Shown: piece after piece, positions 10,348-26,611 of the stretch | Position numbering within the stretch: position 1 is the stretch's first letter | Layout of the letters: each line of letters begins with the position of its first letter | Virus record (IMG/VR): IMGVR_UViG_3300037041_001844 | Location: 1 to 31,024 of that record | Source: a virus | DNA: 31,024 nucleotides | Strand: one strand, 5' to 3' | Notes under the pieces: generated by a model | What the model saw: the letters and a program-made list of their open reading frames with translations, nothing else | What the model was told of the DNA's origin: nothing | Database searches by the model: none | Made by a program: the position numbers and the translations under genes

Positions 10348-10727
10348 TTATTTACCTCTTTTTCAGTGTAAGCAACAATCCTGCTCATGAGTTTGCCGGG
10401 TTCGGTTTTCAGATAAGAGACAATGATTGTATCGATGTTGTCACCCAGCAAATCCTGATAGCTACCATCCTTCAAAGCGAAAGGCGAGTAATAGGGATAT
10501 GTCTTTTCCGTTGTCATATCTGAGAGCTCTTTAAGTTCATCGCTATCAGGTTTAAAAGGAAACATGACAAGATTGTCACGGTATTTAAACCGAACAAACT
10601 TTGCTCCCATGTGGTACATATCCATAAAAGAAAAGCACCTTTGATACCTTTCCTGGTTGCCGCAAATATGGCAAACTTCGCGGCCTCGGTAGATATCGCA
10701 TTCCTGGTTGTTGCCGTTGTAGTTCAT
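10344..10727 (-). CDS. Conserved-looking protein with a putative zinc-binding Cys cluster
   Basis: 127 residues. The start overlaps the upstream stop as TAATG, and GGTGA serves as ribosome binding site. Near the N-terminus there are Cys residues in the order C10, C19, C22, C31 (VCHICGNQERYQRC), a CxxC pair with further Cys that could hold a zinc ion. The rest is mixed alpha/beta (VRFKYRDNLVMFPFKPD; DNIDTIIVSYL). No known family recognised. It sits between the RecT-like gene and the HTH/AT-hook gene in one operon, so a DNA-metabolism link is plausible but not shown. Confidence 0.55.
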   Translation of the reverse strand: MNYNGNNQECDIYRGREVCHICGNQERYQRCFSFMDMYHMGAKFVRFKYRDNLVMFPFKPDSDELKELSDMTTEKTYPYYSPFALKDGSYQDLLGDNIDTIIVSYLKTEPGKLMSRIVAYTEKEVNK

Positions 10728-11638
10728 TATTTCACCATTTGTTTGTATTTTTCATCGAGTTTAATCAAAGCAGCTTCCATGTTCCTTAGAGCATAAATAT
10801 CGTTACACCCTTCAATGACTGTTTCGATGTTGCCTTTCAGCTTGCCAAGTTTTGTGAACCAGTCAGTGGGCCGGGTGTTCAGAAAATCTAGCAGCGAGTC
10901 ATATAGGTCTTTGTATTCGGCCTCAAAATCGGGTGCAACGGGCTCATGCAAATCTTTGGTGACTGTTACTTCAGGTGCAACGGGTTCGGGTGTTTCAACG
11001 GCTGAAAATCCTTTCGGCGGACAATCATCCAATTTAGGTTCAATACGGCTTGCAGCTGCCATATCTATCACCTCATTCATTGAAAATACCTTTGGGTTTA
11101 CATGTACTGGCGTGACGTTTTTAGCTGCAGCAACGTCCTCAAGTTCTTCCTTGGTTTGCATCCCAAACAACACTTCAGGGAAATGAGTGCGAATCAAGAA
11201 AACAGCGGCCCGGTATTTTAGCATTTGCTCGGGAATTGATTTATATATCGCGTTTTTTGTCCAGCCAGCAATGGTTGCCATTTTCAGAGTAACCGTGTTT
11301 GTCACTCTGGTATCATCGTGCAGAATAGCGACGGCAGTTACAGACAAGGTTTCATCCTCTCCCGTCGTTTCGTAGAAAAAGTTCTTCCAAACACCGGCTT
11401 TTCTTGCCAGTGAAATAGCCATGGTTGCTGCCATGCCTGGGCGTCCATGGACTACGAAAATGCTCTGCATAGCTGCAAAAGGTGCTATGTTGGCCCGGTA
11501 AGCGAACTCAAGGGCAATAAGCACGTTTGCCGGTTTACCTTGGAAGTGGGGGGGTATTAGATCGCCGGAAGCAAGGGCTTTTGCGATGTCTTTAGTTTTC
11601 TCAAAATTGTCGTAAATTGCTAGGGATTCATTAATCAT
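10727..11638 (-). CDS. RecT-like single-strand annealing protein
   Basis: 303 residues, with GGAG ahead of the ATG. The first ~165 residues carry a pattern I associate with phage RecT-type annealing proteins: LIPPHFQGKPANVLIALEFA, then MQSIFVVHGRPGMAATMAIS, then a GW/K segment (TIAGWTKNAIYKSIPEQML) and KYRAAVFLIRTHFPEVLFGM followed by T-x-EEL-x-D. These proteins pair complementary single strands in phage recombination and replication. The C-terminal ~135 residues are a variable acidic/Pro-rich linker and a helical tail. The operon partner upstream is the replication initiator, and a RuvC-like resolvase is encoded divergently. No exonuclease partner is visible in the window. The family call is from memory. 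Confidence 0.6.
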   Translation of the reverse strand: MINESLAIYDNFEKTKDIAKALASGDLIPPHFQGKPANVLIALEFAYRANIAPFAAMQSIFVVHGRPGMAATMAISLARKAGVWKNFFYETTGEDETLSVTAVAILHDDTRVTNTVTLKMATIAGWTKNAIYKSIPEQMLKYRAAVFLIRTHFPEVLFGMQTKEELEDVAAAKNVTPVHVNPKVFSMNEVIDMAAASRIEPKLDDCPPKGFSAVETPEPVAPEVTVTKDLHEPVAPDFEAEYKDLYDSLLDFLNTRPTDWFTKLGKLKGNIETVIEGCNDIYALRNMEAALIKLDEKYKQMVK

Positions 11639-11774: not shown

Positions 11775-12860
11775 TCAATTTGTTTCGTGTTCAAAAACGC
11801 GTTGCTTCGCTATTTCAATCAACTCAGGGATTGTGTTTGGATCCCAGTCAATCGCACCTAACAATTTTTCATCAGCGCAAACGGCGTAATATTTTCTAAT
11901 TTCATCAATCGAATATTTACCCCAGATATTTTGATCAAAAACGGTTTTGATTGCGTCCATGGAAACTGATGGGAACCAATTGGGCTTATCACGCGGCTGT
12001 TTGACGCGTTTATGTATTACAGCAAAGAGCCCCCAAGCTTCCTTGTAATCCTTTTTGGCTTGCTTGTCTGAGAGTCGTTTATTGCCCTTCCCAGCGACTT
12101 TTGTTGTCCGACCTATATCTGTGTCCTCTTTTGGTTCTTCATTGAGCTCTGTGGTCGTTCTTTCATTCTTGGGCGGGTTGTCTTTACCTAACTCCAATTC
12201 GGTGAAAGGGGATTGAGTTTCATCAAAGTCACCAAATGCGTCAAAAGATGATGAGGGAGAAAAATGCAATTTTTCTTCCCCAATATTTAATTCTTCTTTT
12301 GGAATATTCCTTTTGGAACTCTTAGGGGCTCTGTGAGAGCCATGAGTGGCTCTGTGAGAGCCATGGTCGGCCTCATTGACAACATCGTTATTACTCACCA
12401 CAGCTCTGTGAGAGCCATGGTCGGCCTCATTGACAACATCGTTATTACTCACCATAGCTCTGTGAGAGCCATGGTCGGTTGTTTCTGCGTTGTCAGAATG
12501 GTCCATGTCCGGTCTGTGGGACCGGTCGTCAGACTTATTGGCATTGTCATTTTCAAACTCATCAAACACCTTTGTCGTGACCGAATACATGGATGCCAGT
12601 CTATTTGACTTGCTCAACGTTCTTTTTAGATAAGCGTCATCTATGAGTCGTTTTAGCGCACGCTTAACAGTGTTGCGTGACACTGACAAATAATCACCGA
12701 AATAGTCTATAATGCTGTATCGCCATTCATGGGGGTTTTCTGTACGACAACCTTTCAAAATGGCGTCTAATATCGCCTTTTCATAAAGGTTTAATTTTTT
12801 GGAGTGCCAAACGGCTTTATAAGACTTCCTACCGGCATACTTATCAAAGGGTGTTGTCAT
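11775..12860 (-). CDS. Replication initiator-like protein (lambda O type architecture)
   Basis: 361 residues, with AAGGA six bases ahead of the ATG. Residues ~1-105 form a winged-helix domain: helices around KKLNLYEKAILDAIL, an HTH with YFGDYLSVSRNTVKRALKRL, then a wing ending in SMYSVTTKV. Residues ~120-175 contain tandem in-frame repeats of an 18-residue unit beginning DHGSHRA, encoded by the palindromic iterons listed separately. An acidic, low-complexity linker follows to ~265. The C-terminal ~90 residues (KKDYKEAWGLFAVI ... SIDEIRKYYAVC ... IPELIEIAKQ) are helical and may contact the replicative helicase or its loader. DNA-binding head, origin repeats inside the gene and a helical tail is the plan of phage lambda O. 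It is the first gene of the leftward operon. No helicase gene is seen. Confidence 0.65.
   Translation of the reverse strand: MTTPFDKYAGRKSYKAVWHSKKLNLYEKAILDAILKGCRTENPHEWRYSIIDYFGDYLSVSRNTVKRALKRLIDDAYLKRTLSKSNRLASMYSVTTKVFDEFENDNANKSDDRSHRPDMDHSDNAETTDHGSHRAMVSNNDVVNEADHGSHRAVVSNNDVVNEADHGSHRATHGSHRAPKSSKRNIPKEELNIGEEKLHFSPSSSFDAFGDFDETQSPFTELELGKDNPPKNERTTTELNEEPKEDTDIGRTTKVAGKGNKRLSDKQAKKDYKEAWGLFAVIHKRVKQPRDKPNWFPSVSMDAIKTVFDQNIWGKYSIDEIRKYYAVCADEKLLGAIDWDPNTIPELIEIAKQRVFEHETN
12261..12315. other. AT-rich stretch beside the iterons, candidate DNA unwinding element
   Basis: 41 of 55 bases are A or T (75%), directly on the initiator-coding downstream side of the iteron array. In lambda the AT-rich segment lies in the same relative place. 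It includes the palindrome GGAATATTCC at 12301-12310. Confidence 0.5.
12327..12525. repeat. Palindromic iteron array inside the initiator gene, candidate replication origin
   Basis: Four copies of the hyphenated palindrome (G/A)GCTCTGTGAGAGCC start at 12327, 12348, 12402 and 12456. A fifth, diverged copy (GGTCTGTGGGACC, inside the palindrome CCGGTC-TGTGG-GACCGG at 12509-12525) is exactly 54 bases further on. The 54-base units at 12348-12401 and 12402-12455 are nearly identical. All repeats stay in the initiator reading frame. In the diverged copy, bases at opposite arm positions change together, so dyad symmetry is kept. This is the arrangement of in-gene origin iterons; binding by the encoded protein is inference. 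Confidence 0.65.
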
Positions 12861-14990: not shown

Positions 14991-15019
14991 CAACTTACAC
15001 TTATATAAGGGGGGTGTTT

Positions 15020-16228
15020 ATGTTTCGATGGATTTTCTTGTTCTTGATCTTGTTCATGGGTGGATGGGGATGTTCCCATCAAAGTGAGTCAATCATCAAA
15101 CCAGACGGCAAACTTGTCGTCACTTCAGCAAGCGGGCAAAAATATTTCACTGGTTTAAAGGTTCCCGTTGGCTTTAAACCCAAGATAGTTCGTAGCGCTT
15201 TGGACGGATTGAAAGCTGACCTACCAGCTGAGTTCGATGCAAGGGTGAAAGGGTATAAGTCACCGGAATCACAGGGGAACTGCGGCAGTTGTTGGGCATT
15301 CTCCATGTCAGCTACAATCCAAGATTCTTACAAGTATCAAACTGGTAAAGACTTCGATACTTCAGAGCAACATGTTCTGTCATGCACCAAGCCGGGAGAG
15401 TATTCTTGCAACGGTGGTTTTTTCGACTACAATCGTCACATGACTCCATTCGGCGGTGTAACAGGCGCGTCGTGGCCCTATTCCGGCACTGATGAGGCAT
15501 GTAAAAGCGGGCTCAATCATCAAATCAAAATCAAACAATGGGCCTACCTACCAGGCGGTGAAAATCCTCCAATTTCAGAGATCAAAGCAGCTATATACCG
15601 CTATGGTATCGTGAGTGTAGGCGTTGCGGCAACGGATGGGATGTCTAACTATCGCGGTGGAATATGGGCGGGCGACGGCTCGACATCTCTCAATCATGCA
15701 GTCGCTTTGGTTGGCTGGTCAGATGCGGGGCAGTACTGGGTGATGAAGAATAGTTGGGGTAACTGGGGAGAGCAAGGGTACATGAGAATTAAATACGGTG
15801 CAAACGGTATTGGAACATGGGCCAATTATGTTGTTTTTGAAGATAATCCAACGCCCGATCCAAACCCAAACCCCGATCCTACTCCAAACCCAACTCCGGA
15901 TCCGGATCCTACACCGCCGCCCCCGCCCCCAGAGTGTGAGCCCAAGCCCTACGCTGATACTGGCTACGGTGACCAGATAAAAGTTAGAGTCGGGGCCACA
16001 GTAATGCTTGGCACTAAAGCGCGGCCTGGTCACTATTATTACTGGACTGCAGAGCCCGCCTTTGAAAATGGGGCAACACCCAAGGAAGCGAAAATTAAGT
16101 ATTCACCAAGAATCACCAAGCGCCTCACTGTTCACGCCGTGACGCAGTGTGGTGAAGCAATTGATTCGGTGACAGTCAACGCGATGAAAAGTTATAATCT
16201 GCAGATGGTTCCAGAAGTGCAGTATTGA
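15020..16228 (+). CDS. Exported papain-family (C1A) cysteine protease, probable lipoprotein
   Basis: 402 residues from the ATG at 15020, chosen over a GTG at 15014 because the six-G ribosome binding site (15009-15014) overlaps that GTG. The N-terminus is a signal peptide ending GGWGC; Cys18 may be lipid-modified, though the lipobox is not canonical. The papain domain spans ~65-275: oxyanion Gln85 and nucleophile Cys91 in SQGNCGSCWAFS, then SCNGG, His226 in LNHAVALVGW, and Asn244 in MKNSWGNWGEQGYMRI. The usual ~100-residue inhibitory propeptide is shortened to ~45. A Pro/Asp/Asn linker (277-304) leads to a ~95-residue beta-rich C-terminal domain with two Cys. All catalytic residues are present. 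Papain-family enzymes are rare in phages. It follows the endolysin with its own promoter and a terminator. Confidence 0.85.
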   Translation: MFRWIFLFLILFMGGWGCSHQSESIIKPDGKLVVTSASGQKYFTGLKVPVGFKPKIVRSALDGLKADLPAEFDARVKGYKSPESQGNCGSCWAFSMSATIQDSYKYQTGKDFDTSEQHVLSCTKPGEYSCNGGFFDYNRHMTPFGGVTGASWPYSGTDEACKSGLNHQIKIKQWAYLPGGENPPISEIKAAIYRYGIVSVGVAATDGMSNYRGGIWAGDGSTSLNHAVALVGWSDAGQYWVMKNSWGNWGEQGYMRIKYGANGIGTWANYVVFEDNPTPDPNPNPDPTPNPTPDPDPTPPPPPPECEPKPYADTGYGDQIKVRVGATVMLGTKARPGHYYYWTAEPAFENGATPKEAKIKYSPRITKRLTVHAVTQCGEAIDSVTVNAMKSYNLQMVPEVQY

Positions 16229-20749: not shown

Positions 20750-20807
20750 GGGGGTAGGGGGGTGGGTAGTCCACCCACTGGGTAGGTAGGGGGGTAGGTA
20801 GGTAGGT
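20750..20807 (+). repeat. G-tract/GGTA repeat tract with hairpin
   Basis: Five or more runs of three to six G, joined by short TA or T spacers, including GGTA repeats up to the ATG at 20808. A hairpin GTGGGT-AGTCC-ACCCAC (20762-20778) sits inside. The G-rich strand is the coding strand and could form a G-quadruplex; the last GGTAGG serves as ribosome binding site. Confidence 0.6.
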
Positions 20808-21047
20808 ATGAAAAAGAATCAACGGGAAAGAACCGTAAAATTTTTGGAAGCGCAGGCTTTCACCTTTGCAGTAATGCAATCACTTCGCGAAACGGGCGCG
20901 GTTAATAGTCGCATGGTTGAACTTGCGTCCAATGCGCATTCTATCGCTGCGCAGGCTATTGGCGATATTGTCGACAAGCATCCAAGGCTTGCGAAAACTG
21001 TCGATAAGATTTTTAAAGAGATCACGGTGACAAATGAGCAAAAATAG
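20808..21047 (+). CDS. Small helical protein of unknown function
   Basis: 79 residues, starting at the end of the G-rich tract. Predicted all-helical: RERTVKFLEAQAFTFAVMQS, NSRMVELASNAHSIAAQAIG, and DKHPRLAKTVDKIFKEI. Neutral overall with basic ends. It overlaps the next gene by 14 bases, forming a chain of small genes leading to the terminase. Not recognised. Confidence 0.5.
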   Translation: MKKNQRERTVKFLEAQAFTFAVMQSLRETGAVNSRMVELASNAHSIAAQAIGDIVDKHPRLAKTVDKIFKEITVTNEQK

Positions 21048-26514: not shown

Positions 26515-26543
26515 AAATCACCAAAAAAATGCATTACAAATAT

Positions 26544-26611
26544 GAGCGCCTACCCTTTTTAGGATGCCGCTCTCTATTTGTGACTGCCTACCCTTTTATG
26601 GATGCCAGTTA
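26544..26611 (+). promoter_or_regulatory. Tandem RNA-like hairpins with conserved core upstream of the capsid gene
   Basis: Two copies of a 19-base core (CCTACCCTTTTTAGGATGC at 26549-26567 and CCTACCCTTTTATGGATGC at 26587-26605) match at 17 of 19 positions. Each is closed by a different stem: GAGCG/CGCTC for the first, TGACTG/CAGTTA (one G-T pair) for the second. Different but complementary stems around the same core point to a structured RNA or a protein-binding hairpin pair in the leader of the major capsid gene. Confidence 0.6.

Follow-up and report, generated by a model that had tools for sequence, protein, structure and literature searches.

A probable lambda-O-like replication origin inside the predicted initiator gene of an uncultivated phage

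The complete virus record IMGVR_UViG_3300037041_001844 (31,024 bases; this whole stretch is the window analyzed here) carries palindromic repeats in the middle of a protein-coding gene, which raises the question of whether the same DNA serves both as coding sequence for a replication initiator and as the origin at which that protein acts. We consider it very likely that this gene, P0001, encodes the replication initiator and that its middle is the phage's own lambda-O-like origin. We infer binding and origin activity from features that are established directly: the dyads, their position and frame, the A+T-rich flank, the predicted winged-helix fold and the arrays in sister phages. This gives a probable origin for a lineage of uncultivated phages in which ordinary sequence searches fail to pick up the initiators. 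The gene and its predicted domains are as follows.

11775-12860, minus strand: predicted replication initiator gene (P0001), a 361-aa ORF with PHROG initiator, O-like and DnaD-like matches.
12531-12833, minus strand: N-terminal winged-helix DNA-binding domain, residues ~10-110 (AlphaFold2 pLDDT mostly 80-95).
12072-12527, minus strand: disordered linker, residues 112-263 (pLDDT <50), holding the presumed origin.
11781-12068, minus strand: helical C-terminal tail, residues 265-360 (low-confidence model), presumably replisome-recruiting.

The AlphaFold2 model was built on a 4-sequence alignment and is confident solely in the winged helix. P0001 matched profiles of initiator, DnaD-like and O-like families at E-values of 8e-6 to 4e-3, the best initiator profile being phrog_428 (8e-6), while the 'O-like' phrog_678 (4.5e-4) is a model that also takes in lambda O and P22 gp18. 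These E-values are weak, and wHTH profiles of this kind also match generic proteins (14 of 14 control genomes were matched). Pfam and NCBIfam gave nothing above cut-off for P0001, DnaD_N and DnaB_2 domains included. At E 0.1, no match was found to the lambda O N-terminal model TIGR01610, to Pfam phage replication O or to the RepA_N domain (PF06970); lambda O itself, as a control, matched TIGR01610 at 5e-39. Searching solved structures with the P0001 sequence returned nothing significant, and close homologues were absent from phages, viral_contigs, plasmids and genome_contigs. With the P0001 model as query, Foldseek placed MarR-type wHTH proteins, which are generic regulators, first among solved structures with weak E-values, and the viral library gave phage replication proteins, an O protein among them, with weak scores.

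The iterons fall exactly beneath codons of the modelled disordered linker. These elements and their surroundings, which have no assigned strand, are listed here.

12326-12342: iteron 1, nearest the A+T-rich stretch and 21 bp from iteron 2.
12347-12363: iteron 2, TGGCTC-TGTGA-GAGCCA, of the tandem-duplicate lineage.
12401-12417: iteron 3, a tandem duplicate of iteron 4.
12455-12471: iteron 4, core GCTC-TGTGA-GAGC.
12509-12525: iteron 5, diverged, CCGGTC-TGTGG-GACCGG on the plus strand, with 6-bp arms.
12349-12478: tandem array with a 54-bp unit, 2.4 copies and 98% matches, by which iterons 2-4 were multiplied.
12258-12314: A+T-rich stretch on the 3' side of the iterons (gene sense), a candidate unwinding element, within the top ~1% of genome windows.

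The five dyads are 15-17 bp long, share one frame and codon phase, are spaced by 21, 54, 54 and 54 bp, and sit ~330-540 nt into the gene, away from its start. Read in gene sense, the sequence is GGCTC-TCACA-GAGCC, and iteron 5 reads CCGGTC-CCACA-GACCGG. The original prediction had placed four exact copies of RGCTCTGTGAGAGCC at 12327, 12348, 12402 and 12456, and all four are present; dinucleotide shuffles gave a mean of 0.85 matches at up to 3 mismatches, with none of 100 equaling the observed count. A whole-genome scan with GCTCTGTGAGAGC at up to 1 mismatch found nothing beyond these four, and no other contig among the viral contigs searched has GCTCTGTGAGAGCCATG, the iteron with its 3' flank. 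In copies 12402 and 12456 the outermost G-C pair is gone, leaving core arms of 5 bp, and at least one of them lies within a longer 25-bp imperfect dyad, ACCATGGCTC-TCACA-GAGCtATGGT. The diverged copy predicted at 12511 is equally real and stands at an exact 54-bp offset from 12457. Changes in both arms were said to have preserved its palindrome, and compared with the other copies two arm pairs are indeed changed on both sides, with one inner pair broken. Its centre is kept and its outer arms are not, and iteron 5 may be a poor site for P0001. The proposed in-frame location between a DNA-binding head and a helical tail agrees with both the ORF and the model, in which the tail is of low confidence.

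Independence of the five sites is a separate matter. Copies 12349, 12403 and 12457 are part of a single recent tandem duplication of 54 bp, whose units are 98-100% identical along their full length, and they therefore count once. Thus, the predicted five iterons all exist, but only three of the dyads are independent. The iteron 5 unit shares 61% identity with the array over 54 bases in exact 54-bp register, and is an older unit of that array.

The downstream flank, predicted to have 41 A or T in 55 bases, proved to be slightly richer, its best 55-mer (at 12260) reaching 42/55; 41/55 is attained by 1.3% of genome 55-mers and 42/55 by 0.7%. A second, equally A+T-rich 50-mer lies in the same gene near 11.9 kb, so the flank is strong, not unique. 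Cumulative GC skew, which had been suggested as a check on the origin, has no turning point at the iterons. An unsupervised scan of whole genomes for repeated dyads, with a null expectation of 0.07 clusters per genome, found clusters solely in the initiator gene in the record and in two of its sister phages, G003 and G007.

These kin were found through terminase and capsid, since the library searches gave no homologue of P0001. The three sisters, G001 (33.7 kb), G003 (34.3 kb) and G007 (34.6 kb), have virion genes collinear with those of the record and capsids 91%, 91% and 83% identical to its own, respectively. Each has one initiator-like gene that is merely 19-23% identical to P0001 (22% in G007, 19% in G003), with weak profile matches and sub-threshold DnaD_N. 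In two of the three, G003 and G007, a different dyad array occupies the matching place in the initiator gene. G003 has three dyads, variants of GGGGGAA-TACAG-TTCCCCC spaced by 33 and 23 bp, in which the arms are conserved and the centre is variable; the third lies in a different reading frame and encodes GGNTVPP instead of EGEYSSP. Taken alone, the codon test on exact dyads is not significant in G003 (p ~0.1), so the evidence there is repetition across different frames. G007 has four sites at 24/24/23-bp spacing, the last again in a different frame (GGGTGCA-TGCGG-TGCACCC twice, GGTGTC-TCACA-GACACC and GGGGGCA-TGGCG-TGCACCC). Because copies within G003 and within G007 lie in different reading frames, it is the DNA that is conserved, not the peptide. 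A 5-bp centre is common to the dyads of the record, G003 and G007, and their 3' flanks are A+T-rich (top 0.14% of genome windows in G003, 3% in G007, ~1% in the record). The dyad sites of G003 and G007 were sought elsewhere in their own genomes and not found.

G001 fits the self-encoded-origin pattern weakly. Its initiator gene contains only two 24-bp direct repeats, with no array in the repeated-dyad scan and no marked A+T flank, and the one dyad pair that the scan returned is unrelated and belongs to a different gene (~9.0 kb). Where the linker begins in the G001 initiator gene (L015:3618-3655), we also observed a 38-bp imperfect palindrome with 22-nt arms that are 86% complementary, which might serve as an alternative site in this sister, the one with no dyad array.

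Dyads in such a gene could instead be operators, through which P0001 or another factor regulates expression at this locus, with the true origin elsewhere. Initiators commonly autoregulate, and the best solved-structure folds for P0001 are MarR-type dimeric repressors. However, the sites lie hundreds of nucleotides inside the gene with no dyad in the intergenic region or elsewhere, the profiles matched are those of replication initiators and not repressors, and the dyads that two sisters carry at this position of the gene, beside A+T flanks, are unrelated. Together these points make an operator function unlikely.

Even less probable is a hairpin function, with the dyads folding in the initiator mRNA (or as single-strand DNA) and controlling, for example, translation or decay. 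The iteron segment does fold well as RNA (z -5.3), and iteron 5 keeps the loop CACA while two stem pairs have changed on both sides, as would be expected of a hairpin. Lambda's proven DNA-binding iterons, however, fold better still (z -8.0), and RNA folding therefore cannot tell the two apart. Furthermore, the conserved arms and variable centre in G003 are the pattern of a dimer-bound site, and the segment matched no Rfam family and has no terminator-like site.

The encoded peptide does not explain the dyads either, since synonymous-codon shuffles that kept the protein, with duplicates collapsed, reproduced such dyads in only 0-1 of 4000 cases. For arms of at least 6 and a 5-bp centre, 2 were observed against a shuffle mean of 0.048 (p 0.00025), and other settings gave 0/4000; for single copies, the peptide allows a dyad in ~0.3-4% of codon choices. 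The view that protein evolution produced the repeats as a side effect, through a tandem 18-aa disordered linker whose codons are self-complementary by chance, has in its favor a genuine 54-bp tandem array, one frame for every copy and an SHR kept in 5/5 encoded iteron peptides, but it is very improbable given these shuffles and the dyads that the sisters retain over differing frames and peptides.

A replication origin within the initiator gene is a design already known from lambda, and the iteron sequences here and in the sisters differ from lambda's. In lambda, the iterons bind O dimers and the adjoining A+T-rich region opens (PMC5043065). Two iterons together with this region are enough, and in Stx phages, which have six, binding to the distal iterons is weak (PMC7466680). 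The lambda record has four annotated iterons mid-O, spaced 20/24/23 bp and spread over all three frames; their dyad is TCCCTC-AAAAC-GAGGGA, and A+T content peaks locally just 3' of them. P22 gene 18 has a similar layout. The predicted lambda-O arrangement of wHTH domain, linker iterons, A+T-rich DNA and tail matches both records. Like lambda O and P22 gene 18, P0001 combines a wHTH initiator with 5-bp-centre dyads mid-gene in the DNA coding for the linker, an A+T-rich stretch directly 3', and nearest two iterons about two turns apart. By analogy, P0001 would work like lambda O, although it falls outside the O family at model level: unlike lambda O, it does not match the model of the O N-terminal family, and its iteron sequence differs. 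The spacing also departs from lambda's 20/24/23 bp, being 54 bp in three of four intervals and thus outside 20-24 bp, and no P-like helicase loader gene was recognised adjoining P0001, the downstream gene being RecT-like.

Under the origin reading, the N-terminal winged-helix domain would bind each palindromic iteron as a dimer, with half-sites flanking the 5-bp centre. Filling of the array, chiefly iterons 1 and 2 (21 bp or two helical turns apart and beside the A+T-rich stretch), would bend the DNA and melt 12258-12314. The helical C-terminal tail might then recruit the host replicative helicase or primase; a host enzyme is proposed because no helicase, primase or polymerase gene was recognised among the scanned ORFs of the record.

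Two other systems bear comparison. In pSK41-type RepA_N plasmids, the origin lies inside the initiator gene, in the DNA that codes for the linker, and in pPR9 the NTD and origin have been swapped naturally as a module, the NTD then being phage-like (PMC5703833). P0001 resembles the pSK41 Rep in having a wHTH domain and a linker whose DNA is the putative origin (Rep boxes in the plasmid), followed by a C-terminal domain that contacts the host in Rep and would do so here; unlike RepA_N proteins, it has no RepA_N Pfam match, and the record's iterons are G+C-rich dyads. DnaD-like phage helicase loaders and HTH_36 replication proteins are linked to P0001 and the sister initiators by weak profile matches, but these fall under curated cut-offs and no DnaB_2-type C-terminal domain was recognised in P0001.

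To us, the most interesting aspect is that sisters with nearly the same virion genes have unrelated iterons of the same half-site geometry. Initiator N-domains and their embedded iterons may turn over together while the dimer geometry (half-sites and 5-bp centre) stays fixed as far as lambda, an idea to which we give slightly less than an even chance. If true, the sister phages would form a natural series for how a winged-helix dimer picks its site. Matched initiator/iteron pairs are now available for testing DNA specificity, and the results suggest that initiator-gene origins could be found through repeated dyads under a disordered linker rather than through protein similarity.

More distant kin, G011 and G012 (terminase 47-49%), had no O-like gene at the search sensitivity used and no dyad cluster. 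G012 has a DNA-primase-like gene instead, indicating that its replication module differs (loci L040-L043). No terminase relatives were found in bacterial genomes, and hence no host or prophage was identified.

Several further features of the record were observed. Directly downstream of P0001 lies a gene for a RecT-like annealing protein (10727-11638, minus strand), shared among the sisters only by G003 (53%), so exchange of recombination genes is separate from that of initiator genes. A papain-family cysteine protease gene (Pfam 2e-41; 15014-16228, plus strand) stands beside an amidase and is conserved in both G003 and G007. Upstream of the capsid gene, two direct repeats of 26 bp lie between ORFs at 26543-26606: TGAGCGCCTACCCTTTTTAGGATGCC and, 38 bp further along, a copy at 85%. 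Additionally, an intergenic G-rich repeat at 20753-20808 consists of GGTAGGGGGGTGGGTAG twice and a GGTA run.
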